Part shown: piece after piece, positions 2,756-37,834 of the stretch | How positions within the stretch are numbered: the first letter of the stretch is position 1 | How the letters are laid out: each line of letters opens with the position of its first letter | From: Cyclobacterium xiamenense | GTDB lineage: Bacteria > Bacteroidota > Bacteroidia > Cytophagales > Cyclobacteriaceae | Direction: 5' to 3' | DNA length: 40,620 bases | Assembly: GCF_009467825.1 (NCBI RefSeq) | Contig: NZ_WIOK01000041.1 | Span: forward strand, 1-40,620 | Translations under genes and position numbers: made by a program | Notes under the pieces: generated by a model | The model's database searches: none | Told to the model about the DNA's origin: nothing | Seen by the model: the letters and a program-made list of their open reading frames with translations, nothing else

Positions 2756-2981
2756 AGTGTTCGGGTGAATTGTATAACCGGTTGGCGGTTTAATTGGTCC
2801 GCTTGTAAATCACACCCCATCACCAAACCATCCTGTCCTCATACCCTGCTGGGTGAAATTTGCAATTTCTCCCTACTATCTACGAAAATACCGTTTGGAA
2901 AACATAGGTCATTTGCAATGGCCATCCGGGTATGATAGTAGGTTATCTCTTTATCCCACTTACCATCAAACCATCGCATAA

Positions 2982-3905
2982 TCAAATCCCATACCTATTA
3001 AATGCCTCCTGATGCGCTTGTTTTACCTGCGCTACCAGCTCCTCGGGAGCCAGCACTTTCAGGCGCGGCCCGTAGGATAGCAGTTCCATGAGCAAATCCT
3101 GCGTGGGGTACACGGTCAACTTGATGCGTAGTTCGTCGTTGGTATCCACCAGAATCTCCTGGCTGGGATGCAGCGGCAAGGTTTTGATATAGTTTCCCTG
3201 GAAGGGCACAAAGGACAATACCACCTCCTGCGGCTGGTCCCCGGTTGCCCCCATGATGCCAAAGCAGTACCGTTGGCTTTGTTGCACGTTGTAATCTTCC
3301 GGATACACAAATTGGTTTTCCGAAATTTTCAGGCGCGTTAATCGGTCCAGTCCGAATCGTTTGATGCGACCGTCCCGGATATCCTTTCCCAGTAGGTACC
3401 AGCGGCTTTTAAATTCCTTCAATGCATAAGGCTCCAGGTGTCGCTGACTGAGCGTTTCGTCCCAAAACTTCCGGTAGTCAAAGGTAATGCATCGCCGGTT
3501 TTTAATTGCGTGGAGCAGGCTATACAGGTGTTCGGTACCTTGCGCGCTTCTTTGCTCCAGGTGAAGGTAGGGAGCCAGGTCCTGTGCCAGGTTGAGGGAA
3601 CTGAAGACATCGAAGGCTTCCATCATGCGCTGAAAGTTTCGGTTTTCTGCGCTGCTTTCGCAGATATGGTACCCTCTTTGGGCGTGCGAATAGGTGATGT
3701 CCAGCCCAAAAAGCATTCGAATTTCCCGTATATCCCGCTGAAGCGTGCGTTTGGAAAACCCCATGCTCAGCCGATCGTCTTGCAGCAGCAGGTAGGTACA
3801 TTGCTGATCGATGTACCGCTGAAGCTCCTCGAAGGAGGAATAGGGATTCATTTTTAGCTTTTTGATCAGGAGCAGGTATCGGTATAGGTAGCCTTTCTTG
3901 GACAT
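2982..3905 (-). CDS. WYL-domain HTH transcriptional regulator
   Basis: A 307-residue YafY-like regulator. The N-terminal region (about residues 15-70) is a winged HTH with FSKRTLQRDIREI, the usual second helix of this family. A WYL domain follows (about 140-235): an early CITFDYRKFW strand, then LEPYALKEFKSRWYLLGKD and IKRFGLDRL. A C-terminal WCX-type region closes the protein. WYL proteins commonly sense nucleic acid or nucleotide ligands and control DNA damage, defence or metabolic genes. The next gene upstream on the same strand is an AAA+ ATPase, 88 nt away. A joint transcript is possible. I see no defence genes around it. Confidence 0.88.
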   Translation of the reverse strand: MSKKGYLYRYLLLIKKLKMNPYSSFEELQRYIDQQCTYLLLQDDRLSMGFSKRTLQRDIREIRMLFGLDITYSHAQRGYHICESSAENRNFQRMMEAFDVFSSLNLAQDLAPYLHLEQRSAQGTEHLYSLLHAIKNRRCITFDYRKFWDETLSQRHLEPYALKEFKSRWYLLGKDIRDGRIKRFGLDRLTRLKISENQFVYPEDYNVQQSQRYCFGIMGATGDQPQEVVLSFVPFQGNYIKTLPLHPSQEILVDTNDELRIKLTVYPTQDLLMELLSYGPRLKVLAPEELVAQVKQAHQEAFNRYGI

Positions 3906-3993: not shown

Positions 3994-5118
3994 TTAGTAT
4001 CCTTTTTTTGATCCAAACCCAATTGCCTGGGTTTTTCTTTCCCGGCAAAATTCCGGTTCTTCCTGATTGTAAACGGCCGTTAGGGTCATGGGTGAATGTA
4101 TTTGCGTTTCAAAGCCCAACGTTGCAGAAAGTGCCCGGGCCTTGGCGGTCTCCAGTTCCTTGAATTCGTAGCTGGCAATCAACCGCCCCTTTCGCAGCAA
4201 GGCCCGGTCCACGCGGGACAGGTCGGTGTTGAAAGAGCAGATAAGTTGGATGGTAAGGCAATCGGACAGCAAGCCGTCCGTGATGTTGAGCAGGGTGGAA
4301 ACCGGCGAATTCCCAGCTGTCTCCCGGTCCACGATGATGTTTTCGGCGTCTTCAATGACGAATACGGAATCCGGATTATCGGTCAAAACGGAAATCAAAT
4401 CCGGATTGGTCAGGGCGTTGGTCAGGCTGGGCGGAAGAAAAATCACCTTTTTTCGGAGGGAAGCTGCCAGGTGGCGAATATAGGAGGTTTTACCGGTTCC
4501 CGGCTTCCCGTGCAACAGCACCAATCCCTTGTCTTTTGGTTGTTGCAGCCGGTTGAGAATCCGCCGATGAACGTCGATAAAGTCATCGTTGTAATGGTCT
4601 TCGATACGCAGCTTGGGTCGGTTGAGTTCCAGGGCTTTGGTTTCAAAGCCGGCGGAAGAGCGCATGAGCAGGTAAATGAAGGCCTGCCGCCTGGTTCGTT
4701 TTTTGAATCGTTTGATCGCCCGAGCTACTGCTTCTACCCGTGGAAGTTCCGTTTCTGCAAAGAGAAACCGTACGGTGGAGCAATTGGTATCGAAATTGAC
4801 GAGCAGGTCTTCGTACAGAATGTAGAAGATGTCGTCGTACTCCGAATTTTTGCTGCCGTCAAAATACCGCTTGATAAAGTATTTCTTTTTGATTTCGGAG
4901 GGGTACTGTTTTTCAAACCAGCGATTGGCCCGCTTGCAGTCGATTGCTATTTCGCTGATCAGGTTGGGTATGGCATTAAAGTGGGCGACAAATAAGGTCA
5001 GTTCATTGAGGTACCTGCCTCTCGGGGCGAATAAATCCCCCAGGTTGATTTTATTCGAGGTGTTGTCGATCCCGGGTTTCTCAGGCGGGATGATTGCGGT
5101 GGCAGTTGCTTTGGTCAT
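3994..5118 (-). CDS. Bcs1-like AAA+ ATPase
   Basis: A 374-residue protein with a single AAA+ module in its C-terminal half: Walker A GKPGTGKTS (near residue 205), Walker B VFVIEDAEN (near 252), a sensor-1 stretch ICSFNTDLSRVDRALL and the following RKGR, which resemble the Bcs1/AAA-4 branch. The N-terminal 190 residues are basic and show no recognisable domain or membrane helix. Such ATPases remodel proteins. Client and role are unknown. The start at ATG 5118 is supported by a perfect -7 box 24 nt upstream. The gene stands alone next to a large repeat array; the WYL regulator lies 88 nt downstream. Confidence 0.8.
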   Translation of the reverse strand: MTKATATAIIPPEKPGIDNTSNKINLGDLFAPRGRYLNELTLFVAHFNAIPNLISEIAIDCKRANRWFEKQYPSEIKKKYFIKRYFDGSKNSEYDDIFYILYEDLLVNFDTNCSTVRFLFAETELPRVEAVARAIKRFKKRTRRQAFIYLLMRSSAGFETKALELNRPKLRIEDHYNDDFIDVHRRILNRLQQPKDKGLVLLHGKPGTGKTSYIRHLAASLRKKVIFLPPSLTNALTNPDLISVLTDNPDSVFVIEDAENIIVDRETAGNSPVSTLLNITDGLLSDCLTIQLICSFNTDLSRVDRALLRKGRLIASYEFKELETAKARALSATLGFETQIHSPMTLTAVYNQEEPEFCRERKTQAIGFGSKKGY

Positions 5119-5141
5119 AACCGATAGTTTTGAGGTTCCGT

Positions 5142-5149
5142 CAAAAGTA
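5142..5149 (-). promoter_or_regulatory. -7 box for the AAA+ ATPase gene
   Basis: TACTTTTG on the minus strand is an exact TAnnTTTG, 24 nt before the ATG at 5118. A matching -33 TTTG at the usual spacing is not evident. Confidence 0.45.
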
Positions 5150-6281
5150 GCCCTTGCCTACGCCAAAGGGTGTCGTCGGTAAAGGTATTTTTCGGGAAGG
5201 CGGTATGTTTGTCATTCAGCGTTGAATTCGTATTGTTGGCGATGCCAATGAATTCGGGATAAGTTGGCTCGAACCATCCGGCACAGCGCTCGCTCAATAC
5301 GCGAGTCCTGCCGATTACGTAGTATATGTACTTCTATGGTTCCAACTTTTTGCTTGGCCGTTTTTTTTTAAACCATATAAGGGATGCCGAAATAGCTTTA
5401 ATCGTTTACCCAATTTTTACAATCTGTCCAAAAAATTGGTTTAGCCTACTTGTTTGTATCCGCTTCTATGCCCTTCGATGGTTCGAATTTTTTGTTCTGC
5501 CGTTTTTTTAAATCCTATAAGGCATATAAGGGATGCCGAACGGGCCTGCATCCCTTCTACAAATTTTACACTCCGTGCAAAGATTGGTTCAACCCACTTG
5601 TTCGTATCCGCTTCTATGCTCTTCAATGTACTTCTATGGTTCCAACTTTTTGCTTTGCCGTTTTTTATTAAACCATATAAGGCATATAAGGGATGCCGAA
5701 ATAGCTTCAATGGCTTACCCGATTTTTACGCTCTGTCCAAAAAATTGGTTCACCCCCTGTTCGTATCCTCTTCTATGTTCTTCTATGGTTCCACTTATTT
5801 TAACCATATAAGGCATCTAAGGGATGCCGAACTGGCGTGCATCCCTTCTACAAATTTTGCTCTCCGTCCAAAAATTGGTTCAACCCACTTGTTCGTATTC
5901 GCTTCTATGCCCTTCTATGTTCTTCTATGGTTCGAATTTTTTGATCTGCCGTTTTTTTAAACCATATAAGGCATATAAGGGATGCCGAACGGGCCTGCAT
6001 CCCTTCTACAAATTTTGCTCTCCGTGCAAAGATTGGTTCAACCCCCTGTTCGTATTCGCTTCTATGCCCTTCTATGTTCTTCTATGGTTCAAATTTTTTG
6101 TTCTGCCGTTTTTCTTTAAATCCTATAAGGCATATAAGGGATGCCGAACTGGCCTGCATCCCTTCTACAAATTTTGCGCTCCGTCCAAAAATTGGTTCAG
6201 CCCACTTGTTTGTATTCGCTTCTATGCCCTTCTATGTTCTTTTATGGTTCAAATTTTTTGTTCTGCCGTTTTTTTGAACCA

Positions 6282-6450
6282 CATACTATAGGGACATATA
6301 CGGGTTTCGAATTTCCAGCGCTGAAGGCGCGAAACTACCTCAGCACAGGGTGTAGCCCTGTGATCGATAGGCATACCCGTATCCCAAGCGCTGAAGGCGC
6401 GGAATATAGGCGTCAATCCATGCGCAGTCGCTTCTCTTTGACCAGTACGT
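6282..6450. repeat. REP-like palindromic element, copy 1
   Basis: A 169 bp block that is foreign to the array units and recurs at 6793-6961 with about seven differences. It contains AGCGCTGAAGGCGCG twice, a perfect hairpin CACAGGG-TGTAG-CCCTGTG, and outer arms TACGGGT and ACCCGTA that can pair with each other. Nested palindromes of this kind resemble the REP/BIME-like elements of Bacteroidota that are moved by RAYT-type transposases. No such transposase is in the window. Confidence 0.65.
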
Positions 6451-6792
6451 CTATGGTTCCACTTATTTGAATCCTATAAGGCATCTAAGGGATGCCGAAA
6501 TAGCTTCAATAGCTTACCCAATTTTTGCTCTCCGTCCAAAAAATTGGTTCAACCCACTTGTTCGTATTCGCTTCTATGCCCTTCTATGTTCTTCTATGGT
6601 TCCAACTTTTTGCTTTGCCGTTTTTTTTAAACCATATAAGGCATATAAGGGATGTCGAACGGGCCTGCATCCCTTCTACAAATTTTACACTCCGTGCAAA
6701 AATTGGTTCAACCCACTTGTTCGTATCCGCTTCTATGCCCTTCTATGTTCTTCTATGGTTCAAATTTTTTGATCTGCCGTTTTTTTGAACCG

Positions 6793-6961
6793 CATACTAT
6801 AGGGACATGTACGGGTTTCGTATTTCCAGCGCTGAAGGCGCGAAACTACCTCAGCACAGGGTGTAGCCCTGTGATCGGTCGGTATACCCGTATCCCAAGC
6901 GCTGAAGGCGCGGAATATAGGCGTCAATCCATACGCAGTCGCTTCTCTTTGACCAGTGCGT
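6793..6961. repeat. REP-like palindromic element, copy 2
   Basis: Second copy of the 169 bp element, same length and orientation, at the equivalent position of another array unit (after the poly-T block and GAACC). Three of the seven differences cluster in one five-base stretch between the CACAGGG hairpin and the ACCCGTA arm. Both copies are followed by the same CTATGGTTCCACTTATTT, so the unit plus insert may have been duplicated together. Confidence 0.65.
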
Positions 6962-7110
6962 CTATGGTTCCACTTATTTTAACCATATAAGGCATATAAG
7001 CGAGGCCGAAATAGCTTCAATAGCTTACCCAATTTTTACGCTCTGTCCAAAAATCTGTTCAACCGGCTTGTTTGTATTCGCTTCTATGCCCTTCTATGGT
7101 TCGAATATCT

Positions 7111-9069: not shown

Positions 9070-9247
9070 AAAGCGGGTTAACGGCCCGTAAAGCCATTTT
9101 TTGCCATTTACGTTGAAAAATAGTCAATTCCTTGTTCGATTTTTTAGTCTCAGTTATTAAAAGTATAATAAAAACAGTTTTTTAATAAAAATACTGTAAA
9201 AAATTGCTTAATTTGTTGTTGAAATTTTATTTTATCGATCCATTTAT

Positions 9248-9255
9248 TACCTTTG
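9248..9255 (+). promoter_or_regulatory. -7 box of RNA element, copy 1
   Basis: TACCTTTG is an exact TAnnTTTG. It is kept in both copies although the base two positions before it differs. An AT-rich stretch precedes it, but no -33 TTTG lies at the usual 19-21 nt spacing. Transcription would start near 9261. Confidence 0.55.
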
Positions 9256-9408
9256 AGATATCAAACAAAGACAAACGGTCTTGACTGGCGTAACAGCCAG
9301 CAGTTTTGACACAATACTGTAGGATGATGAAACCTGCCTTCGGTAGGCGAGTAAAAGGCGACAACGCTTTTTCGTTTTTATCTTCATGCAAAATAAGATC
9401 ACACACAC

Positions 9409-9532
9409 TGTAGGGTGATGAAACTGGCAGACATGCCCTCCTGTCTCGGGGGTGGGGAGTCCGGAATAAAGCAAATAGCGAGCTCGTATTTTGCCCAACC
9501 GCCCCGTGGAGGTTCGAATCCTTCTCCTACAG
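9409..9532 (+). tRNA. Class II tRNA-like domain, loop reads GUC, copy 1
   Basis: A cloverleaf can be drawn. Acceptor TGTAGGG (9409-9415) pairs with TCCTACA (9525-9531). The D arm has a 3-bp ATG/CAT stem and a loop reading AAACTGGCAGA, closely like tRNA-Leu. The anticodon stem is CCCTC/GGGGG with loop CTGTCTC (9441-9447), whose positions 34-36 are GUC. A very long variable arm of about 55 nt contains a GCAAATA...TATTTTGC hairpin. The T arm is GGAGG-TTCGAAT-CCTTC. Oddities: a Leu-type body with an Asp-type anticodon, pyrimidine at 37, G at 73, no encoded CCA, and C before the 5' end able to pair with G73. It may be a pseudo-tRNA or an allo-tRNA-like molecule, or serve another function. Confidence 0.4.
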
Positions 9533-9565
9533 CAGGTTATTTTGGGTTTATTGTTAATTGACTAA

Positions 9566-9597
9566 AGCTATGAAACGTTGTTTCATGGCTTTTTTTG
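9566..9597 (+). terminator. Intrinsic terminator of RNA element, copy 1
   Basis: AGCTATGAAAC (9566-9576) pairs with GTTTCATGGCT (9580-9590), an 11-bp stem with one G-U pair and a three-base loop, followed directly by T7. A textbook rho-independent terminator, identical in the second copy. Confidence 0.85.
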
Positions 9598-9787
9598 TGC
9601 GCAGTCCCGAGGGATTGGCGGCATGTCGAAGTGTCGTGGTACTGCCCTGCACTCCGGAGTTGCCGGTATCCCCGGATTCCTGCCCAACTGGGGGGAAGTA
9701 CCAGCAAAGGCCGCGGGCCTTTTGCCGGATCGATGAGGTGCAAACCAACTCGCTTTCATCGATTTTTTTAGGGGCTATCCCTAGTGG

Positions 9788-21685: not shown

Positions 21686-21708
21686 TTTTATTTTATCGAT
21701 CCATTTGT

Positions 21709-21716
21709 TACCTTTG
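21709..21716 (+). promoter_or_regulatory. -7 box of RNA element, copy 2
   Basis: TACCTTTG, exact TAnnTTTG, identical to copy 1. Expected start near 21722. Confidence 0.55.
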
Positions 21717-21869
21717 AGATATCAAACAAAGACAAACGGTCTTGACTGGCGTAACGGCCAGCAGTTTTGACAGGATACTGTAGGATGATGAAACCTGCCT
21801 TCGGCAGGCGAGTAAAAGGCGGCGACGCTTTTTCGTTTTCATCTTCATGCAAAATTAAATCACACACAC

Positions 21870-21993
21870 TGTAGGGTGATGAAACTGGCAGACATGCCCT
21901 CCTGTCTCGGGGGTGGGGAGTCCGGAATAAAGCAAATAGCGAGCTCGTATTTTGCCCAACCGCCCCGTGGAGGTTCGAATCCTTCTCCTACAG
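21870..21993 (+). tRNA. Class II tRNA-like domain, loop reads GUC, copy 2
   Basis: Identical over all 124 nt to 9409-9532, with acceptor TGTAGGG/TCCTACA, Leu-like D arm, anticodon loop CTGTCTC and long variable arm. The same reservations apply: no CCA, pyrimidine at 37 and a mismatch between body type and anticodon. Confidence 0.4.
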
Positions 21994-22026
21994 CAGGTTA
22001 TTTTGGGTTTATTGTTAATTGACTAA

Positions 22027-22058
22027 AGCTATGAAACGTTGTTTCATGGCTTTTTTTG
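22027..22058 (+). terminator. Intrinsic terminator of RNA element, copy 2
   Basis: Same 11-bp stem, three-base loop and T7 tract as copy 1. Confidence 0.85.
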
Positions 22059-22218
22059 TTTCTGCCCGATAGATTTAACTCGCAGAAAAAGCAGTTGGAG
22101 GACAATCGGCGGATTAAAAAACGAACAACTCCTGTTCCGATTAGTTATTTTCGGTCAAGAACTTTCGCCAAAAGCCATTTTTTTCTGAGGGAGCAATCGG
22201 TTCTTCGAGAAAAAAACG

Positions 22219-28936: not shown

Positions 28937-31900
28937 ATGAATAGCAAACGGTTTTTGAATGAATTAACTGGTAAGTCTCCTGAGAAGGCGCAGACGGTTC
29001 TTGATTTATTTCAAAAACAGGTTAACAGCTATCCGGAAAAGAAAGCAATTAGGGAGGCATCCCACAGCTATACCTATACCGAACTGGACGAGCTGGCTAC
29101 CAAAATCAGTCAGTTTCTAGGCGATCCAGCGTTTCAATTCCAGCAATTGGTTCCGGTGAGTATGGACCGGACGCACCGCTATGTGGCCACTATCCTGGGA
29201 ATAATCAAATCGGGTAAAGCCTTCGTACCACTGAATCCGGAATGGCCGGAACAGCGAAAGCGGGAAATCCTTCAGCAGCTGAATGCTACCTTCCTTTTTA
29301 GCGAGGGCGAGACGTCGGACCCGAGTGAAAAATTCACCCTGCTCGCCTTTGATGAAGCCGTAAGGGTGGGCGAAAGTACGACATCGGCTGGGTTAGACCG
29401 CATCAACCCGGATACCCCTGCCTACATCCTCTATACATCTGGTAGTACCGGATCGCCCAAAGGCGTGCAGGTAAATCACCGGCAGTTGTTTGCTGCTACC
29501 CAAAATAGGATTGATCGGTATCCGGGTGTTCCCCACCTTTTGCTGATTCCGCCGCTGAGCTTTGATGCCTCCCTGGCAGCCATTTTTTGGCCCTTATGTA
29601 CCGGAGGTAGTCTGGTCATGAGTTCTGCCGAGTCCATTCGGGAACCCGAAGCGATTCCTTCCTTATTGGCGGGAACCAATACCTTGCTTTGTGTGCCCAG
29701 CTACTACCGTTTTCTTCTTGAAGAAGGGCTTTTGAAGGGGCAGCAGCTGGAGCGTGTCATTTTGGGAGGAGAGAGCCTGCCCAAAACACTTGCCCTTGCC
29801 CATTTTCAGGAAATGAATCAGGTACGCCTCTACAACGAATACGGCCCTACCGAAACCACCATCTGGTCCACCGTCGCAGAAATCACGCCTAAGCAGGATC
29901 CCATTACTATCGGAACGCCACTAGCGGGAGTCAGCTGTTACGTATTGGATCCAAAAACGGGAGCGCGTTTGCCTGCGGGCATCGGTGGAGAACTATACAT
30001 TGGCGGCATTCAAGTGGCCCAGGGCTATTGGAAAGATCCGGCCCTGACAGCCGCCCGGTTTCTTCCGGATCCGTTCAGTGAGGAGAAGGGAGCCATCCTG
30101 TATGCAACAGGAGATCGGGTTCGAAGCCTTCCGGATGGGCGTTTGGTATTTGAAGGAAGGAACGACCGCCAGGTAAAATTTCAGGGAAACCGCATTGATT
30201 TGGCAGAAATCGAAAAGGTGCTGCTCGATTCAGAAAAGGTTTCGGAGGCGGTTGCAATGCTGGCCGAACCCCTTGGGTCGAATCCGCAACTCCTGCTTTT
30301 TATCGTTCCGAAGGGACGACTGAATGCGGGCGAGGCCCGGCATTTGCTCGAAAAACGCCTTCCCGTATACATGATTCCGGGTAAAATCGAACTGAGAGAC
30401 CGTTTTCCACGTACCGAGAACGGGAAATTGGACCAGCAAGCGCTGCTGGCGGGCCTACCAGAGGAGACGAAAATGAATGGGCTGTCCGATAAGGAATTGC
30501 ACTATTTGGTGCAAGCAGTCGGGGACGTACTTGGAGTGGAGCAACCAGATGTATCCAAAAATATCTTTGAATTGGGTGGCAATTCGCTTGCAGCCATGCA
30601 GCTGGTGGCTCGTCTGAACAACGAGCACAAAGTAGGCCTTCGCGTTTCGGATATTTTTGACCACCCAACGATTTCTGAATTGCACGGGGTAGTTCGACGG
30701 AGACGGCAAGCCGAGGTGGTGAAAAGCGGCGCGTCCGCCGCTCCTTCCCGCGCACAACCGCTGCCTCCGGCGGTCTCTTCTGCCCAACAGTCTCTTTGGA
30801 TAGTCGATCAGCTGGAGGGTTCCCTGGCTTACCACCTATCGGTAAGCTACCTGCTAACCGGAAAACTGGATCCGAACAGGTTGGAAGTGGCCATACGGGC
30901 GGTGATAAAAAAACACAAAAGCCTACGGACCTGCATTTTGGGAATCGATCGGGTTCGCCTGAAGGCAGCAGCGCATTGGAAGTTTGACCTATACCGGGAG
31001 TCGGAACGGGAGTTTTCCGAATCGGTGGTTCGGGAAGACTTCGACGACTTTTTTCGGAAGCCTTTTGATCTCCGGGAAGACTTTATGGTGCGGGGTAGAT
31101 TGCTTTCCTTTGGCAAGGAAAGGCATGTATTGGGCTTGGTTTTCCACCACATCGCATTCGACGATCATTCGATGAAGATTTTTCTTCGGGAGCTGTCGGA
31201 CAATTACCGTTCCCTCGCTACCGGGGCTGTTTTGGAGGATTCCCCGGACTTCGTAGAACCACCGCCCGCCACTGTCCATGACCAGCGGGAGGTGCCCGAA
31301 GATACCGGATCGATGGCTTATTGGGAAAAAACCCTGGCTGGCTGGGAAATCTTGCAGTTGCCAACCGATTACTCGCAGACATCCGCAGGCCCTCGTCCGG
31401 CAGGCATTCTGCGGTTTTTTCTGGATCGGCAAGAAATTGCGCCGGTCGCAGCTATTGGAAAAGAACATCAGGCTACCCTGTTCATGACGTTTTTGGCCTT
31501 GTTTAAGGTGTTGCTGTACCGGTATACGAACCAGGTAGACATTTGTGTCGGAACCACGGTCGCAGACCGAAATTTTCCGGGTGCCGAAGAGCAGATTGGC
31601 TACCTGATCACGACCGTACCGCTGCGGTCCCGCATCCAACCAGCGGATACCTTTGACCAGTTTTTGCATGCCATTAAAAAGGAAGTAAGGGAGGCCTTGG
31701 CCCATGCCCGGATTCCCTTCCTGAAATTGGTGGAGGCATTTTCTTCGGGTGATACCGGAGGAAAACCATTCTTCAACACACTTTTTGTCATGCACGAAGG
31801 TGCCGCTGACGCAGCGAATTTGCAGTTACCAGATATTGAGGTCGGAAGTCTGGATGTGGATCCATTTGCCGCCAAATTAGATCTTAGCTTCAGCCTGGCC

Positions 31901-34900
31901 GGGGATGCCACTGGTCTCCAGGGAAGCATTGAGTACGACGCAGGAAAGTTCGCTCCAGAAACCATTGAACGCTTGCTCGCTCATTTCCGGCAATTAATGC
32001 AGACGCTGCCCGAACAGCTGCATTCTCCGGTTAAGAAAATGACCTTGCTTTCTGCCGACGAACTGGATGCGCTTTCCGGTGAGGAAGCGTCTCAGGCAGA
32101 TACCGTTTACCGAAGTTTTTTCGACCGCTTTGAGGAACAGGTAGCGAGGAAAGGGCCTGAAACCGCCTTATTGACAGGCCGGGAACGAATGGATTTTAGT
32201 AGCCTGGATCGCCGAGCAACCAAGCTTGCCGATTGGCTGGTACGGGAAGGGGTCCGGCAGGGCGACCACGTGGTACTATTGGCCGCGCGGGGGTCGGATA
32301 TGGTTGCAGCCATGCTGGGAATATGGAAGGCAGGCGCAGCCTACGTGCCGGTGGACCCGGCCTACCCTGCCGAACGGATTGCGTTTATCGTGGCGGATTG
32401 CGGAGCTTCGCACTTGCTGGTCGACGAGGCATCGGCTGGCCTAATTGAGCCGAAACATGGGGGAAAACTCCTCCGGTTGCAGCAAGGGTTAAAAGAGAGC
32501 GATTTTGAGCCACAGCGACTACCAAATTTGTCCCCGGATCAGCGGGCTTACCTGATTTATACCTCCGGAACCACAGGAAAACCCAAGGGCGTTTGCCTGA
32601 CGCAGGCCAATCTTGCCGCATTTTTGGATTGGTGCGGCAGGGAATTTGCCCCGGAAAGTTTTGCGTTGATGTACGCCGCGACATCCATGTGCTTTGACCT
32701 GTCGATCTTCGAATTATTTTTCCCGCTGGCCTTTGGGAAGCCGATCCGTATTCTTCAGAACGGGCTTCAGATTCCGGAATACCTTCCCGGGGATCAAGGG
32801 GTGCTGATCAATACGGTCCCCAGCCTGGTGCAGAAGCTGCTGGAAGAAAAGGTGGATTTGGCTCATGTGGCTTTGCTAAACATGGCGGGCGAACTCCTAC
32901 CCGGATCGCTTGTAAATCAGCTGGATCTGGAAAGCCTACCTGTCCGCAACCTGTATGGCCCCACGGAGGATACCACGTATTCTACCTGTGAGCGGCTCCT
33001 GCCTGGCAAACCGGTCTCCATCGGCCGACCAATAGCCGGTAGTTTCGCCTATGTTCTGAATGCGGATCTCATGCCTTGTCCGGTGGGCGTGCCTGGAGAG
33101 ATCTACCTGGGAGGCAGGGGGCTGGCACAGGGCTACTGGAACCGACCCGGATTGACGGCGGAAAAATTCGTTCCAAATCCCCTTGTAAAAGCGGCTGGAA
33201 GTATCCTATACAAAACCGGAGACCGGGGTGTTTGGCGTTCGGATGGGAAAATTGACTTCTTGGGTAGACTGGATAATCAAATCAAGTTGAACGGGTACCG
33301 AATCGAATTGGATGAAATAGCTACCCTAATGCAGGCCATCCCGGGGGTAAAGAACGCGGTAGTAGTACTTCAGCAAGCGGCTTCCGGTGAAAAGCGGCTG
33401 GCTGGATTTTTTACCGCCGACCAACCATTGGACACGAGGAAAATTCAAGGAAAATTGCGCGATGCCTTGCCGGGCTACATGTTGCCTTCTCAGGTGGTAC
33501 AGGTGGATCGCTTTCCACTGACACCCAATGGCAAAATCGACCGGAAGCAGCTTGAAAAAGCGGCAATTCTGGCTTCGGAACAGAAAGGCTTTGCACCGCC
33601 CACCACCTTGCTGGAAAGCAACTTGCTCGACCTATGGCGAACGGTGTTGCGTTCGGATCAGGCAGGAGTCCGGGATAATTTCTTTTTATTGGGCGGAAAT
33701 TCACTTTTGGCCCTGAGACTGCTCGGCAAAATACGGGAGTCCATCGGGGTAGAAATAAGCGTGACCGAATTGTTTTCCCACCCAACGGTTTCGGCCATTG
33801 CCGATTTGATCCGAAGTCGCGAACAAACGAGTACGGTATCTGCCCGTATTCTTCCATGCAGGCCACGGCCGGACCGTGTTCCCCTGTCTTTTGGTCAGGA
33901 GAGTCTATGGCTGACCGATAAGCTGGAAGGTTCCAGCCAATACCATATTCCCTTACTGATAAAAATTACCGGAGAAACCCGCAGGATGGTGTTGCAGGAG
34001 GCCATCAAAAGCATCATGGAGCGCCATGAGGTCCTGCGGACCGTAATCCGGGAACGGGGAGATGAGGCCTCCCAGCAGGTAATGCCGGTTGCAGCCTGGG
34101 AGTTGGCCGAAGCTTCCGGGCATTTGGGAGCCTCTCAAGCCGGTTTGCCTGATCGAGAAATGGCCGAGTTTCTGGCGCGGCCTTTCGATTTGGGAAAGGA
34201 TTACATGATTCGCGCCAAAAAATACCCGCTGGACGGGGATGCATGCCATCTATTCGTCGTCGTTCATCACATCGCATTTGACGGATGGTCCATTTCCGTA
34301 TTTCTCAGCGAACTCTTTGCGTTGGTAAAGTCGGAAAAACGGGGAGAAAGCCCACTTTTGCCTCATCTAAAAATTCAATACGCGGACTACGCCCTCTGGC
34401 AGCGAAATCGGCTCCGGGATGAGACCCTGGCAGCAAAAATGCAGTATTGGAAAGAAAAACTTGCCGGTCTGCGGCCCTTTCATTTTTATGGGGAGGGAGT
34501 GCGTGCACACCGGAAATCCCATGACGGCGCCACGTACGATATCCGCATCGGTTCGGATCTCCGCAAGCGTATTCTGGAGCTGGCTAAGCAGTTGGGTCTT
34601 TCTCCTTTTATGCTATTGCTAGCAGCTTTTAAGTCCCTGCTGGAACGAAACAGCGGGCAGCGAGACCTGTGTGTGGGTACCGCTATGGGCGGGAGAAATC
34701 ACACGGAAACAGAGCCAATGATCGGGTATTTTGTCAACCCACTGCCCATTCGCAGCAAGCTGAATCCGAGTGACTCGTTTCGGGATACCCTATTAGCGGT
34801 GAAAAAAAACACACTGGAGGCCTATGAACACCAGGAAGTACCCTTTGAAAAGATTGTCGCGGCCACTGCCCAGCACCGGCAATTTGGAGTGAATCCACTT

Positions 34901-37834
34901 TTTCAAGTCATGTTTGTGATGGAGTACGGTGATGAGGTAAGAAATAGTGCAGAGGGCTTGTCCATGGAGGTACAATCCGTCCCTCAAACCACCGCTAAAT
35001 TTGACCTTACCTTTCTGGTCAAGGAAAGCAGCACAGGAATTGGCGTCCGGATCGAATATTCCAAAGATATCTTTGATGCCGAAAGGATCGAAAAGCTGGC
35101 TTCCCAATACATTCAACTATTGGATTCGGGGCTGGCTGATCCCAATCAAAAGCTCTCCCAATTGGTGCCCGATCGCGCTTTCAGTGGCCTCGGTAAAGTA
35201 GAAGCTTACGAAGGAATCAATCAACGCTACCTGCCGATCCAACGAATGATCGAGGCAGCTGCAAGCCGCAACGGGGATCGGACGGCGGTTTTTTTCGGAA
35301 GGGCCGAGCTGTCCTATGCCTCGTTAAATTCCCAGGCAAACCAGCTGGCTGCGTATCTGTTGGACCAAGGGCTAAAAAAAGGGGAGGTCGTGGGCATTCT
35401 GCTTCCGCGTTCTCCAGCGTTCGTGATAGGTATCCTGGGCATTCTCAAGGCCGGCGGCGCTTACCTGCCACTGGATACCGATTTACCTGCACAGCGCATT
35501 GGGTACATGCTGGAGGATTCCTGCTCGTTTTTCATCACCGGTGCTGACGAGCATCAAATAGAGACCAGCGTGACGAAAATCCTCTGGGAGGAGTTTCAGG
35601 ACAGGGCCGGGGAATACCCCACGCGAAATACGGAAGTCCATTCCGTCCCGGACGATCCCGCATACCTTATCTATACTTCCGGTACCACCGGCAAGCCAAA
35701 GGGGGTTGCCTTGGATCACCTCAATTTATTCCATTTCGTGTCGGTCGTAAACGATCAACCGGGGATTTCCGCCACGGACAGGGTATTGGCCGTAAGTTCG
35801 GTTTCGTTTGATATTGCGCTATTGGAAACCCTGGTTTCGTTGGTTTTCGGGGCCCAGATAATAATTCTTGACCGAGAGCAGCGAAAAGAACCCAGGGTCA
35901 TTCTGGAGGAACTGGAAAACCGTGCCATCACGGTTATGTTTGCCACGCCTTCCCACTGGAAAATGATGTTGGAGGGAGGCTGGACGCGGAAAGTTGAAAG
36001 CTTGCGGATGATCAGCGGGGGAGAGCCTCTGGAAATGAACCTGGTCCAGCGCCTATTGCCGCTTGGGGCAGAATTGTGGAACGTATACGGCCCTACAGAA
36101 ACGACAGTTTATGCCACCATCAAGCAGGTGCGCGCAACGGATCGGGAAATAACGGTGGGCAAGCCGGCGGTCAATACCCGGCTTTACGTCGTGGATAAAG
36201 ATGGAAATCCCGTTCAAAAGGGAAGAAAGGGAGAAATCTGGGTTGCTGGACACGGGGTCGGGTCCGGTTATTTAAACCAGCCCGAACTGACCCGAGAACG
36301 ATTTATCGAGATTCCCGCGGAGGCTGGTTCGCGCCATCGTGTATACAAAACCGGGGATTTGGGTTGGATTACGCCTGCGGACGAATTGGTCGTCAGTGGT
36401 CGCATGGACCATCAGGTAAAGATCCGTGGACACCGAATCGAATTGGCTGAGGTGGAAAGCGGGCTTCGTCAACTGAAAGGAATCAAGGATGCGATCGTTT
36501 TGGTGCGGAAGGACGCAAACGAACAGGCATTTTTGCGGGCCTATTTGGTCCCAACGCAAGAGGCTATCCTGGAAGCCCAGGTATGGCAGTACCCGGAGGC
36601 CAATCAGGTCAGGCAGTGGAGAAATCAATTGGCTGAGAATCTGGCAGAGGTGATGATTCCGACAGACTATTTGTGGGTGAAAGCTTTTTCATTAACCGAA
36701 AATGGGAAGGTAAACCGCGAGGCACTGCCCGATCCGGAAAGAGGGTCCGCGGCTTCGACGGGCGATGGGGCAGGATTTGATCCGGAAGAGCGATTGGTGG
36801 CGGAAATTTGGAAAAAGGCACTGGGGCTGGAACAAATCCGTAAAACCGACAATTTTTTTGAGATAGGCGGACATTCCCTGACGGCCGTAAAGGTGATGGT
36901 GCAGTTGGAAAACGTCTATGGCATTCGGCTGCCCTTATCGGTGCTGTTTAAATACCCGACCATTCAAAACTTATCTCAAGCCATCAAAAGCGGTGTACTG
37001 GGAGACAGCGAGTGGAAAAGCCTGGTAGCGATAAAAAATGCCGGTTCGAAGCCGCCCCTGTACATCGTTCACGGAGGAGGTTTGAACATTCTTCCGTTTT
37101 ATGCCGTGGCCAGGGAAATGGACCGGGAGCAACCGGTATTCGGGATTCAGGCCAAAGGACTGGACGGGGTAGAGCAGCCCCTGCAGACCGTCGAGGCCAT
37201 AGCTTCTCAGTACCTTTCGGAAGTTTTGCAGCAAAATCCGAATGGACCGTATTTTCTGGCAGGATATTCGTTGGGAGGAATTATCGCGTATGAAATGGCC
37301 TGCCAACTGAGAAAAATGGGGAAATCTGTGGAAAAGTTGGTCTTGTTCGACACCTATGCATTCCAGCGGAATTACCACCTCGCCTTAGGGATGCGCTTGC
37401 TGAAAAACATGGAATATTTTTTCGGCAAAAGGAAATTTGATGTGGAACTTCTGCTCCGGCATCCGGACATTTTCAAACGTATAAAAAAAGCATCCTGGCA
37501 AAGGAAATTTCGAAAGGTTCACAAACTATTGGGAGCCGAGCAGGAAAAGGCAGAGTCTTCGTTGCTCAAAACATACAAACGAGTGGAGTACGTTTACAAA
37601 GAGGCCTGTAAGGGATACGAGATACCGTATTACGATGGAGCGGTAGACCTAATTAAGGCCCGGATTGCTTCCGGTTACCTACCGGACAAGGAGGGTTTTG
37701 GCTGGAAACCCTTTGTAAACGAACTACGTGTATGGGAGGCGGAAGGCGAACACATCACGATGTTATCTCCGCCAAACGATGCCAGTTTTGCGCGGCTACT
37801 GCAACAAGTATTGGACCAAAAAAATAAAAAATAA
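28937..37834 (+). CDS. Trimodular nonribosomal peptide synthetase
   Basis: A 2965-residue NRPS laid out A-PCP-C-A-PCP-C-A-PCP-TE. A domains carry SGSTGSPKG (about 168), TSGTTGKPKG (about 1208) and TSGTTGKPKG (about 2247). Carrier serines are in GGNS (about 549), GGNS (about 1589) and GGHS (about 2646). C domains have HHIAFDD (about 737) and HHIAFDG (about 1776). The thioesterase has GYSLGG (Ser about 2778) and a His near 2939. There are no E, MT, R or Cy domains and no first C domain, so module 1 loads an amino acid and the TE frees a tripeptide, linear or cyclic. Hand-aligned specificity codes: A1 DAALIGEIWK (unclear), A2 DLFNNALTYK (alanine-type), A3 DILFIGVVYK (aliphatic, Ile-like). No MbtH protein or phosphopantetheinyl transferase is in the window. 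Confidence 0.95.
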   Translation: MNSKRFLNELTGKSPEKAQTVLDLFQKQVNSYPEKKAIREASHSYTYTELDELATKISQFLGDPAFQFQQLVPVSMDRTHRYVATILGIIKSGKAFVPLNPEWPEQRKREILQQLNATFLFSEGETSDPSEKFTLLAFDEAVRVGESTTSAGLDRINPDTPAYILYTSGSTGSPKGVQVNHRQLFAATQNRIDRYPGVPHLLLIPPLSFDASLAAIFWPLCTGGSLVMSSAESIREPEAIPSLLAGTNTLLCVPSYYRFLLEEGLLKGQQLERVILGGESLPKTLALAHFQEMNQVRLYNEYGPTETTIWSTVAEITPKQDPITIGTPLAGVSCYVLDPKTGARLPAGIGGELYIGGIQVAQGYWKDPALTAARFLPDPFSEEKGAILYATGDRVRSLPDGRLVFEGRNDRQVKFQGNRIDLAEIEKVLLDSEKVSEAVAMLAEPLGSNPQLLLFIVPKGRLNAGEARHLLEKRLPVYMIPGKIELRDRFPRTENGKLDQQALLAGLPEETKMNGLSDKELHYLVQAVGDVLGVEQPDVSKNIFELGGNSLAAMQLVARLNNEHKVGLRVSDIFDHPTISELHGVVRRRRQAEVVKSGASAAPSRAQPLPPAVSSAQQSLWIVDQLEGSLAYHLSVSYLLTGKLDPNRLEVAIRAVIKKHKSLRTCILGIDRVRLKAAAHWKFDLYRESEREFSESVVREDFDDFFRKPFDLREDFMVRGRLLSFGKERHVLGLVFHHIAFDDHSMKIFLRELSDNYRSLATGAVLEDSPDFVEPPPATVHDQREVPEDTGSMAYWEKTLAGWEILQLPTDYSQTSAGPRPAGILRFFLDRQEIAPVAAIGKEHQATLFMTFLALFKVLLYRYTNQVDICVGTTVADRNFPGAEEQIGYLITTVPLRSRIQPADTFDQFLHAIKKEVREALAHARIPFLKLVEAFSSGDTGGKPFFNTLFVMHEGAADAANLQLPDIEVGSLDVDPFAAKLDLSFSLAGDATGLQGSIEYDAGKFAPETIERLLAHFRQLMQTLPEQLHSPVKKMTLLSADELDALSGEEASQADTVYRSFFDRFEEQVARKGPETALLTGRERMDFSSLDRRATKLADWLVREGVRQGDHVVLLAARGSDMVAAMLGIWKAGAAYVPVDPAYPAERIAFIVADCGASHLLVDEASAGLIEPKHGGKLLRLQQGLKESDFEPQRLPNLSPDQRAYLIYTSGTTGKPKGVCLTQANLAAFLDWCGREFAPESFALMYAATSMCFDLSIFELFFPLAFGKPIRILQNGLQIPEYLPGDQGVLINTVPSLVQKLLEEKVDLAHVALLNMAGELLPGSLVNQLDLESLPVRNLYGPTEDTTYSTCERLLPGKPVSIGRPIAGSFAYVLNADLMPCPVGVPGEIYLGGRGLAQGYWNRPGLTAEKFVPNPLVKAAGSILYKTGDRGVWRSDGKIDFLGRLDNQIKLNGYRIELDEIATLMQAIPGVKNAVVVLQQAASGEKRLAGFFTADQPLDTRKIQGKLRDALPGYMLPSQVVQVDRFPLTPNGKIDRKQLEKAAILASEQKGFAPPTTLLESNLLDLWRTVLRSDQAGVRDNFFLLGGNSLLALRLLGKIRESIGVEISVTELFSHPTVSAIADLIRSREQTSTVSARILPCRPRPDRVPLSFGQESLWLTDKLEGSSQYHIPLLIKITGETRRMVLQEAIKSIMERHEVLRTVIRERGDEASQQVMPVAAWELAEASGHLGASQAGLPDREMAEFLARPFDLGKDYMIRAKKYPLDGDACHLFVVVHHIAFDGWSISVFLSELFALVKSEKRGESPLLPHLKIQYADYALWQRNRLRDETLAAKMQYWKEKLAGLRPFHFYGEGVRAHRKSHDGATYDIRIGSDLRKRILELAKQLGLSPFMLLLAAFKSLLERNSGQRDLCVGTAMGGRNHTETEPMIGYFVNPLPIRSKLNPSDSFRDTLLAVKKNTLEAYEHQEVPFEKIVAATAQHRQFGVNPLFQVMFVMEYGDEVRNSAEGLSMEVQSVPQTTAKFDLTFLVKESSTGIGVRIEYSKDIFDAERIEKLASQYIQLLDSGLADPNQKLSQLVPDRAFSGLGKVEAYEGINQRYLPIQRMIEAAASRNGDRTAVFFGRAELSYASLNSQANQLAAYLLDQGLKKGEVVGILLPRSPAFVIGILGILKAGGAYLPLDTDLPAQRIGYMLEDSCSFFITGADEHQIETSVTKILWEEFQDRAGEYPTRNTEVHSVPDDPAYLIYTSGTTGKPKGVALDHLNLFHFVSVVNDQPGISATDRVLAVSSVSFDIALLETLVSLVFGAQIIILDREQRKEPRVILEELENRAITVMFATPSHWKMMLEGGWTRKVESLRMISGGEPLEMNLVQRLLPLGAELWNVYGPTETTVYATIKQVRATDREITVGKPAVNTRLYVVDKDGNPVQKGRKGEIWVAGHGVGSGYLNQPELTRERFIEIPAEAGSRHRVYKTGDLGWITPADELVVSGRMDHQVKIRGHRIELAEVESGLRQLKGIKDAIVLVRKDANEQAFLRAYLVPTQEAILEAQVWQYPEANQVRQWRNQLAENLAEVMIPTDYLWVKAFSLTENGKVNREALPDPERGSAASTGDGAGFDPEERLVAEIWKKALGLEQIRKTDNFFEIGGHSLTAVKVMVQLENVYGIRLPLSVLFKYPTIQNLSQAIKSGVLGDSEWKSLVAIKNAGSKPPLYIVHGGGLNILPFYAVAREMDREQPVFGIQAKGLDGVEQPLQTVEAIASQYLSEVLQQNPNGPYFLAGYSLGGIIAYEMACQLRKMGKSVEKLVLFDTYAFQRNYHLALGMRLLKNMEYFFGKRKFDVELLLRHPDIFKRIKKASWQRKFRKVHKLLGAEQEKAESSLLKTYKRVEYVYKEACKGYEIPYYDGAVDLIKARIASGYLPDKEGFGWKPFVNELRVWEAEGEHITMLSPPNDASFARLLQQVLDQKNKK

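Follow-up and report, generated by a model that had tools for sequence, protein, structure and literature searches.

The window, i.e. the whole stretch of 40,620 nucleotides analyzed here (contig NZ_WIOK01000041.1 of Cyclobacterium xiamenense), contains two 374-nt copies of one element, at 9225–9598 and 21686–22059, whose direct comparison yields exactly ten mismatches; both the coordinates and the count agree with the original prediction. The flanks of the copies have diverged, with ungapped matches at 37 of 60 positions upstream and 17 of 60 downstream. The element had been described as a single 374-bp RNA gene, and while the copies are real, this “gene” is a composite of a promoter, a leader, a tRNA-like unit, and a trailer with a terminator (Table 1). 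In relatives, the matches mostly consist of the tRNA-like unit alone, near relatives adding the trailer and a piece of the promoter.

The remaining reported features, namely, the -7 box, the cloverleaf, the terminator (hairpin of copy 1 at approximately 9564–9596, by eye), the GUC anticodon in its loop with a pyrimidine at position 37, the Leu-type D arm, and the long variable arm, were all found. CCA is not encoded, as had been stated, yet C74 is. According to inspection by eye, the acceptor/T composition is 7/5, with G at position 73 and C, A, or T immediately preceding position 1. We take TACCTTTG, the sequence of the -7 box, to be the Bacteroidota-type -7 promoter motif; of 99 homologues, 40 have TANNTTTG in the 60 nt upstream, compared to a mean of 3.0 and a maximum of 9 in shuffles.

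All ten differences between the copies fall at 9246–9397, upstream of the tRNA-like part, nine of them in the leader (copy 1 numbering) and the tenth at 9246. They had been cited in support of the stems, but none lies in the tRNA-like unit, which is identical in both copies, and thus the two copies alone are uninformative on its stems. Inside each leader, the beginning of the tRNA-like unit is found once more (TGTAGGATGATGAAAC in copy 1; 21779–21794 in copy 2), probably the relic of a decayed tandem first copy.

Table 1. Features of the two 374-nt copies in the window.
Feature	Position	Strand	Basis or detail
Putative -7 promoter box TACCTTTG, copy 1	9248..9255	+	sequence
Putative -7 promoter box TACCTTTG, copy 2	21709..21716	+	sequence
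Leader, copy 1 (start inferred)	9262..9408	+	sequence
TGTAGGATGATGAAAC in leader, copy 1, repeat of the 5′ end of the tRNA-like unit	9318..9333	+	sequence
tRNA-like unit, copy 1	9409..9533	+	R1 match, 137.9 bits; homologue structure counts
Acceptor stem, copy 1	9409–9415/9525–9531	+	
D arm, copy 1	9418–9434	+	
Anticodon arm, copy 1	9436–9452	+	
Anticodon loop CTGTCTC	9441..9447	+	GUC 9443–9445, pyrimidine 37 9446, C38 9447
Variable arm, copy 1, 54 nt	9453..9506	+	outer stem, internal loop AAUAAA/CCAA, inner hairpin
T arm, copy 1	9508–9524	+	
G73 and C74, copy 1	9532 and 9533	+	
Trailer and intrinsic-type terminator hairpin with T run, copy 1	9534..9598	+	sequence
tRNA-like unit, copy 2	21870..21994	+	R1 match; 125/125 bases identical to copy 1
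Trailer and terminator, copy 2	21995..22059	+	sequence

The genome of the organism itself yields five matches, that is, the two window copies, one further unit on contig C51 with a trailer as in the window copies, a diverged unit on C73 with its own terminator, and a relic of the 3′ part on C17 (L005). The latter was considered as a second RNA and rejected: only two of eight loci fit the pattern, their 5′ parts cannot be aligned, and it has the appearance of a relic. Loci L005 and L287 keep only the T arm, the 3′ side of the acceptor, the trailer, and the terminator, with unrelated 5′ parts; such loci are likely relics, and one or two of them occur per genome of the genus among the matches listed. 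The genome also carries a normal tRNA set, including tRNA-Asp(GTC).

Elsewhere in the window, positions 5326–7099 hold an array of related repeats (families of 60–300 nt with up to nine copies, often spaced by approximately 157–160 nt), where the listed open reading frames are short, and a single open reading frame of 2965 aa occupies 28937–37834.

Structure and distribution of the RNA family

The prediction that the element matches no standard RNA holds for the window, where Rfam and ARAGORN yield no matches; a permissive Rfam search of 9100–9700 gives two matches at chance level, neither to tRNA. The RNA reaches neither the RF00005 gathering score nor an ARAGORN call in the window or its own genome, and ARAGORN is silent at all eight loci examined in relatives. 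No matches were obtained in plasmid and phage collections, and we did not find the family mentioned in the literature searched.

Relatives are nevertheless numerous. The DNA search gives matches in 46 of 59 genomes (own included), with up to 18 per genome, where pieces of one unit may count separately; in the genome with 18 matches (G002), nine places cover the unit among the matches listed. Intact tandem units are found at three loci (L021, L022, L023). With a covariance model built from 32 sequences (R1), genomes were classified as RNA-positive at scores of at least 78 bits; up to 11 candidates were scored per genome, hence the resulting numbers are lower bounds: at least 53 of 296 class-level genomes, from 19 families, and at least 31 of 296 phylum-level genomes, in overlapping samples (own count among the places listed). 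Places listed at 68 bits or less are approximately 75–90 nt long and resemble ordinary class II tRNAs. When all 39 RNA-negative genomes used for comparison below were re-searched with R2, the best score was only 60.7 bits, at places of normal class II tRNA length, and thus the absence of the RNA stands at that sensitivity. A pattern scan of genomes produced at least 120 stretches (80 loci listed), the matches listed including Chitinophaga, Pedobacter, Mucilaginibacter, Dyadobacter, Spirosoma, Algoriphagus, Cyclobacterium, Echinicola, and Neolewinella, as well as Ignavibacteriales UTCHB1. The unit is 108–200 nt long in 99 distinct sequences.

In one relative (L081), two 331-aa transposase genes (2894–3889 and 5031–6026) encoding an identical protein, presumably of the IS110 type, lie between RNA copies; insertion targeting of the RNA copies is possible.

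The cloverleaf with a 7-bp acceptor stem and the D, anticodon, and T arms is supported by homologue alignments, and the compensatory stem changes that the original prediction had expected in homologues were observed in both the 32- and the 104-sequence alignments. In the former, 98.9% of cells are paired and the covariation is 0.189 vs. 0.115 for shuffled and at most 0.097 for slid controls; the number of further pair types (17 vs. 16.5) is not above that of shuffles. In the latter, a model-fitted alignment of 104 distinct sequences with 98.0% of cells paired, both sides change in 12 of 25 pairs, compared to at most three in slid controls; the third pair of the anticodon stem fails in 22 sequences and the first pair of the variable arm, in 20. 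When the single sequence of the unit is folded without constraints, the minimum-energy structure (−40.5 kcal/mol) lacks the D and anticodon arms and differs from the cloverleaf, which when enforced gives −34.1 kcal/mol.

Across relatives, the internal loop of the variable arm is conserved (approximately AYAAA on the 5′ side, CUAA on the 3′ side) and lies between an outer stem and an inner hairpin that differs widely in length; in 22 of 32 sequences, the inner part folded alone exceeds shuffles in stability by more than one standard deviation. The submotif GGGTTGACCAC recurs in the inner hairpin at L065, L073, L074, L087, L089, L090, L094, L098, L100, L102, and other loci. The family of covarying RNAs to which the tRNA-like part belongs is widespread in Bacteroidota, with a patchy distribution over the phylum.

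Identity elements and the neighboring AsnC-type regulator

Two sets of homologues were used to assess conservation: A2, with 77 distinct homologues, and A4, with 104 distinct sequences from the pattern-scan loci. The A4 pattern fixed GTC, C38, and GGCA and excluded A37, and hence A4 cannot test those features. A2 was not so filtered; still, the R1 seeds were gathered demanding GTCTC and a final AGC, which introduces into A2 some selection for GTC, C38, A72, G73, and C74, while U1 and G2 were never demanded. Given this partial selection, GTC and C38 are each found in 77/77 sequences of A2. G73, C74, and G2–C71 are each present in 77/77 (A2) and 104/104 (A4), and U1–A72, in 77/77 and 103/104, respectively. 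Position 37 of A2 is T in 73, C in three, and G in one sequence, never A, and it is a pyrimidine in 100/104 sequences of A4, whose pattern excluded A37. Position 33 of A2 is T in 64, G in 11, and C in two sequences, G or C thus replacing U33 in 13/77 (A2) and 15/104 (A4).

Strong determinants of Asp identity are G73, G34, U35, C36, and C38, whereas U1–A72 confers GatCAB amidation of aspartyl-tRNA-Asn, which in tRNA-Asp is prevented by G1–C72 and U20a, according to PMC9976931. The strong AspRS determinants and the GatCAB determinant U1–A72 are all present in the RNA. Against recognition by AspRS, the minor Asp determinant G10 is mostly missing (present in 4/77 sequences of A2 and 23/104 of A4), as is G1–C72, to which a role in placing the 3′ end is ascribed for the E. 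coli AspRS. In keeping with GatCAB amidation, the listed D loops lack U20a, having C–A after G18G19. In the organism's own genome, only tRNA-Asn and tRNA-Gln begin with U among 35 tRNAs. Judged from these positions, the RNA unites aspartate and amidotransferase signals, identity sets that are normally kept apart.

A pyrimidine at position 37 and an unconserved U33 speak against decoding. As position 37 is never A in A2 and U33 is not conserved, the RNA looks non-decoding.

The genomic context adds a link to asparagine in many relatives. A cluster of AsnC-type regulators is found at 62 of 98 RNA loci, never on the RNA strand; with start codons placed by a simple rule, 61 of these 62 genes start 123–253 nt from the RNA start, divergently, the exception being L077 at 1645. 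Of the 80 pattern-scan loci, 49 have an AsnC-type regulator next to the RNA in divergent orientation and 31 do not, and the linkage extends to an Ignavibacteriales record. It was not observed in the window, at the two other loci of the same genome (L006, L007), or, among those listed, in most Cyclobacteriaceae genera and Saprospiraceae records. One representative regulator has the Pfam Lrp/AsnC domains, with AsnC as the best PDB match (1.6e-31; Lrp 1.6e-10) and 40% identity to E. coli AsnC over 149 aa without gaps, which places this representative, as far as such similarity can tell, in the AsnC rather than the Lrp branch. In E. coli, asnC and asnA are divergent and 151 bp apart; AsnC activates asnA and asparagine abolishes the activation, as stated in PMC4482635.

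Other arrangements of the regulator and other neighbors were considered as well. The idea that AsnC is exchanged between the RNA and asnA/asnB was rejected, as an AsnC-type gene was found at none of 15 asnA/asnB loci (L232–L246). Among three gatB loci (L247–L249), one has such a gene: at L248 (G196), a regulator of this type (72 bits) lies at 1946–2503, on the gatB strand and upstream of gatB with one gene between. The other neighbors of the RNA were rejected as direct partners, since only lineage synteny was seen; presumably, these are SufB and fatty-acid-CoA-ligase-like genes in Cytophagales, RluD and AsmA-like ones in Cyclobacteriaceae, and OppC-like ones in Chitinophagaceae. No gene for asparagine release was found linked to the RNA loci.

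Co-occurrence with GatCAB and sources of asparagine

Gene content was compared in 80 genomes, 41 RNA-positive and 39 RNA-negative, which were picked for contrast, not randomly, and are related, so that the counts are not independent; 12 further RNA-positive class-level genomes and others of the phylum-level sample were left out. GatB is encoded in 41/41 RNA-positive vs. 27/39 RNA-negative genomes (Fisher 6.5e-5); judged by GatB, all chosen RNA-positive genomes encode GatCAB. AsnRS is found in 78 of the 80 genomes, all except G158 (RNA-positive) and G358, and GlnRS, in 39, of which 22 are RNA-positive.

Normally, GatCAB is required only where GlnRS or AsnRS is lacking. Yet among class-level genomes with both synthetases, GatB occurs in 22/22 RNA-positive vs. 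1/13 RNA-negative ones (Fisher 1.6e-8). In other classes, GlnRS, AsnRS, and GatB are found without the RNA in four genomes (G367, G373, G392, G404), and adding these changes the comparison to 22/22 vs. 5/17 (1.6e-6). In the single class-level exception, G069, GatB shares what appears to be one 1120-aa frame with a second AspRS (G069:C19:17848-21120), apparently a built-in fusion enzyme for Asp-to-Asn conversion, which hints that GatCAB serves this conversion where GlnRS is present.

The association is also seen within families. Five families among the 80 genomes are mixed, with GatB in 18/18 RNA-positive and 2/8 RNA-negative members. In three of them (f59, f55, f22), a grouping chosen post hoc, the counts are 12/12 vs. 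0/6; in the other two (f23, f68), they are 6/6 and 2/2, both of the latter (G060, G239) lacking GlnRS.

AspRS is single in 40 of the 41 RNA-positive genomes, with no match in G158. A His in the AspRS motif, said to mark bacterial non-discriminating AspRS (ND-AspRS), is absent from 29 of 30 readable loci, including 11/11 from RNA-positive genomes, and RNA-negative ones are alike.

AsnA is present in 3/41 RNA-positive (the own genome, G342, G237) and 3/39 RNA-negative genomes. What we label short AsnB, i.e. matches of approximately 528–578 aa ending near model position 385, is found, among the matches listed, in 9/12 genomes lacking both the RNA and GatB (the copy of G188 having an internal stop) and in 0/41 RNA-positive ones; AsnA or short AsnB, with the latter again among the matches listed, occurs in 10/12 and 3/41, respectively. 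However, the 27 RNA-negative genomes with GatB have two doubtful short AsnB among the matches listed and no AsnA, and thus the absence of these enzymes tracks GatB, not the RNA. AsnB-like proteins above the cut-off, mainly of 590–690 aa, are found among the matches listed in 35/41 RNA-positive genomes; neither these nor AsnA are found, with the same scope, in six RNA-positive (G046, G324, G059, G334, G578, G212) and 7/39 RNA-negative genomes.

GlnRS was not found in the genome carrying the window, and AsnA is present there. Hence, in this organism asparagine need not come from the RNA alone and GatCAB is also needed for something else, and the case for a role in asparagine supply rests on the relatives.

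Proposed role and relation to known systems

We regard it as reasonably probable that the RNA is a metabolic tRNA dedicated to asparagine production and not to decoding, charged by AspRS, amidated by GatCAB, and regulated by AsnC. The analysis demonstrates the family, its structure, the invariant positions, the AsnC linkage in many relatives, and the co-occurrence with GatB; from charging to regulation, the steps are those that we infer. Points that weigh against this reading are AsnA in three and, among the matches listed, AsnB-like proteins above the cut-off in 35 of the 41 RNA-positive genomes, the four genomes of other classes with GlnRS, AsnRS, and GatB but no RNA, the seven RNA-negative genomes in which neither AsnA nor such an AsnB is listed, the scarcity of G10 and G1–C72, and the 31 of 80 loci without an adjacent AsnC-type gene. 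AspRS would read G34–U35–C36, C38, and G73 and charge the RNA with aspartate, and GatCAB would read the U1–A72 pair and amidate the product to asparaginyl-RNA, from which asparagine would be freed as Asn and used by AsnRS. As the carrier has the Asp anticodon, a discriminating AspRS would suffice. Asp codons would be misread if a GUC anticodon delivered asparagine to them, so that the RNA would have to be kept off the ribosome, possibly by the pyrimidine at position 37, the unconserved U33, and the oversized structured variable arm. In many lineages, the divergent AsnC-type regulator would control the RNA gene, as E. coli AsnC does asnA.

A wider version, to which we give an even chance, is that in many Bacteroidota the RNA gene took the place of asparagine synthetase, AspRS and GatCAB making the asparagine of the cell on it, with AsnC switching it on when asparagine is scarce. 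If so, this would explain why GatCAB is kept despite both GlnRS and AsnRS, and an RNA would do the job of a metabolic enzyme cofactor. It also offers a solution to the puzzle of bacteria with AsnRS, GlnRS, and GatCAB but without asparagine synthetase: 18 of 547 genera, Bacteroidetes included, for which a non-discriminating AspRS was proposed in PMC4206432.

The “tRNA mimic or regulatory RNA” of the original prediction proved too vague, the invariants pointing to AspRS and GatCAB and the neighborhood in many relatives, to asparagine. In a more specific form, charging or binding by AspRS and GatCAB would report the Asp/Asn supply, with AsnC as a partner and without bulk asparagine production. 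The AsnC linkage would fit such a sensor, the structured variable arm with its conserved internal loop exceeds the needs of charging, and AsnA stands beside the RNA in three of 41 genomes; still, we consider it unlikely, as the six RNA-positive genomes with neither AsnA nor an AsnB above the cut-off among the matches listed need another source of asparagine, and several units per genome (nine places among those listed in G002) suit a bulk role better.

Dedicated non-decoding tRNAs for cell wall synthesis exist. By this precedent, and given the invariant AspRS determinants, the RNA might be a non-decoding Asp-tRNA that donates aspartate to another product (lipid, peptide, or cell wall), the co-occurrence with GatCAB being a by-product of lineage. 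This seems rather unlikely, since the near-invariant U1–A72, the contrast in GatB between RNA-positive and RNA-negative members of f59, f55, and f22, and the AsnC linkage are left unexplained.

Far less plausible is an odd tRNA decoding Asp codons or a SerRS-charged allo-tRNA. The intact cloverleaf would agree with decoding; according to PMC7609411, GUC is among the commonest anticodons of 8/4 allo-tRNAs, and PMC9976931 lists both G73 and a large variable region for Ser as well. However, a normal tRNA-Asp is present, A37 never occurs and U33 is replaced in part of A2, and the invariant GUC and C38 would be unexplained under SerRS charging. The allo-tRNA-like decoder of the original prediction is likewise unsupported, since the acceptor branch is 7/5 instead of 8/4 or 9/3 and neither U33 nor a purine at position 37 is kept. 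A functionless spreading repeat or pseudogene family, suggested by the multiple copies, relics such as C17 (L005), leader remnants, and a pair of transposase-like genes that separates RNA copies of one relative, is refuted for the family by covariation, and deserves hardly any credence given compensatory changes and invariant sites over 19 class-level families and the Ignavibacteriales record as well as lineage-wide synteny, while single copies could still be dead.

An anticodon-nuclease decoy and an anti-Shine–Dalgarno mimic were considered together with the SerRS-type allo-tRNA and set aside, as none explains the combination of invariant GUC, C38, G73, and U1–A72.

The proposed asparagine-making RNA may be compared with four known systems. 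It shares its predicted chemistry with the tRNA-dependent synthesis of asparagine on tRNA-Asn by ND-AspRS and GatCAB (Deinococcus, Thermus, Bdellovibrio): here, too, aspartylation is predicted to be followed by GatCAB amidation specified by U1–A72. ND-AspRS systems use tRNA-Asn, as described in PMC4206432, whereas here the carrier would be a separate GUC RNA with a non-decoding-looking loop; being separate and having the Asp anticodon, it would need no non-discriminating AspRS. With tRNA-Asp(GUC), the RNA shares G34–U35–C36, C38, G73, and G2–C71, but it has U1–A72 instead of G1–C72, a Leu-like D arm, a variable arm of 54 nt (in the window), and no A37.

Allo-tRNAs are similar in their unusual class II body and an anticodon not matching the body, GUC being common in the 8/4 kind, and polycistronic groups of them have been reported (both from PMC7609411). 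The RNA differs in the 7/5 rather than 8/4 or 9/3 composition and in its one fixed anticodon; moreover, the allo-tRNAs reported in PMC7609411 come from Clostridia, Proteobacteria, and Acidobacteria, whereas the RNA is found in Bacteroidota. Finally, the arrangement resembles E. coli asnC–asnA, where an AsnC-type regulator is divergent from an asparagine-related gene at a comparable distance (151 bp vs. 123–253 nt), the difference being that the partner of the regulator is an RNA gene and not asparagine synthetase A.
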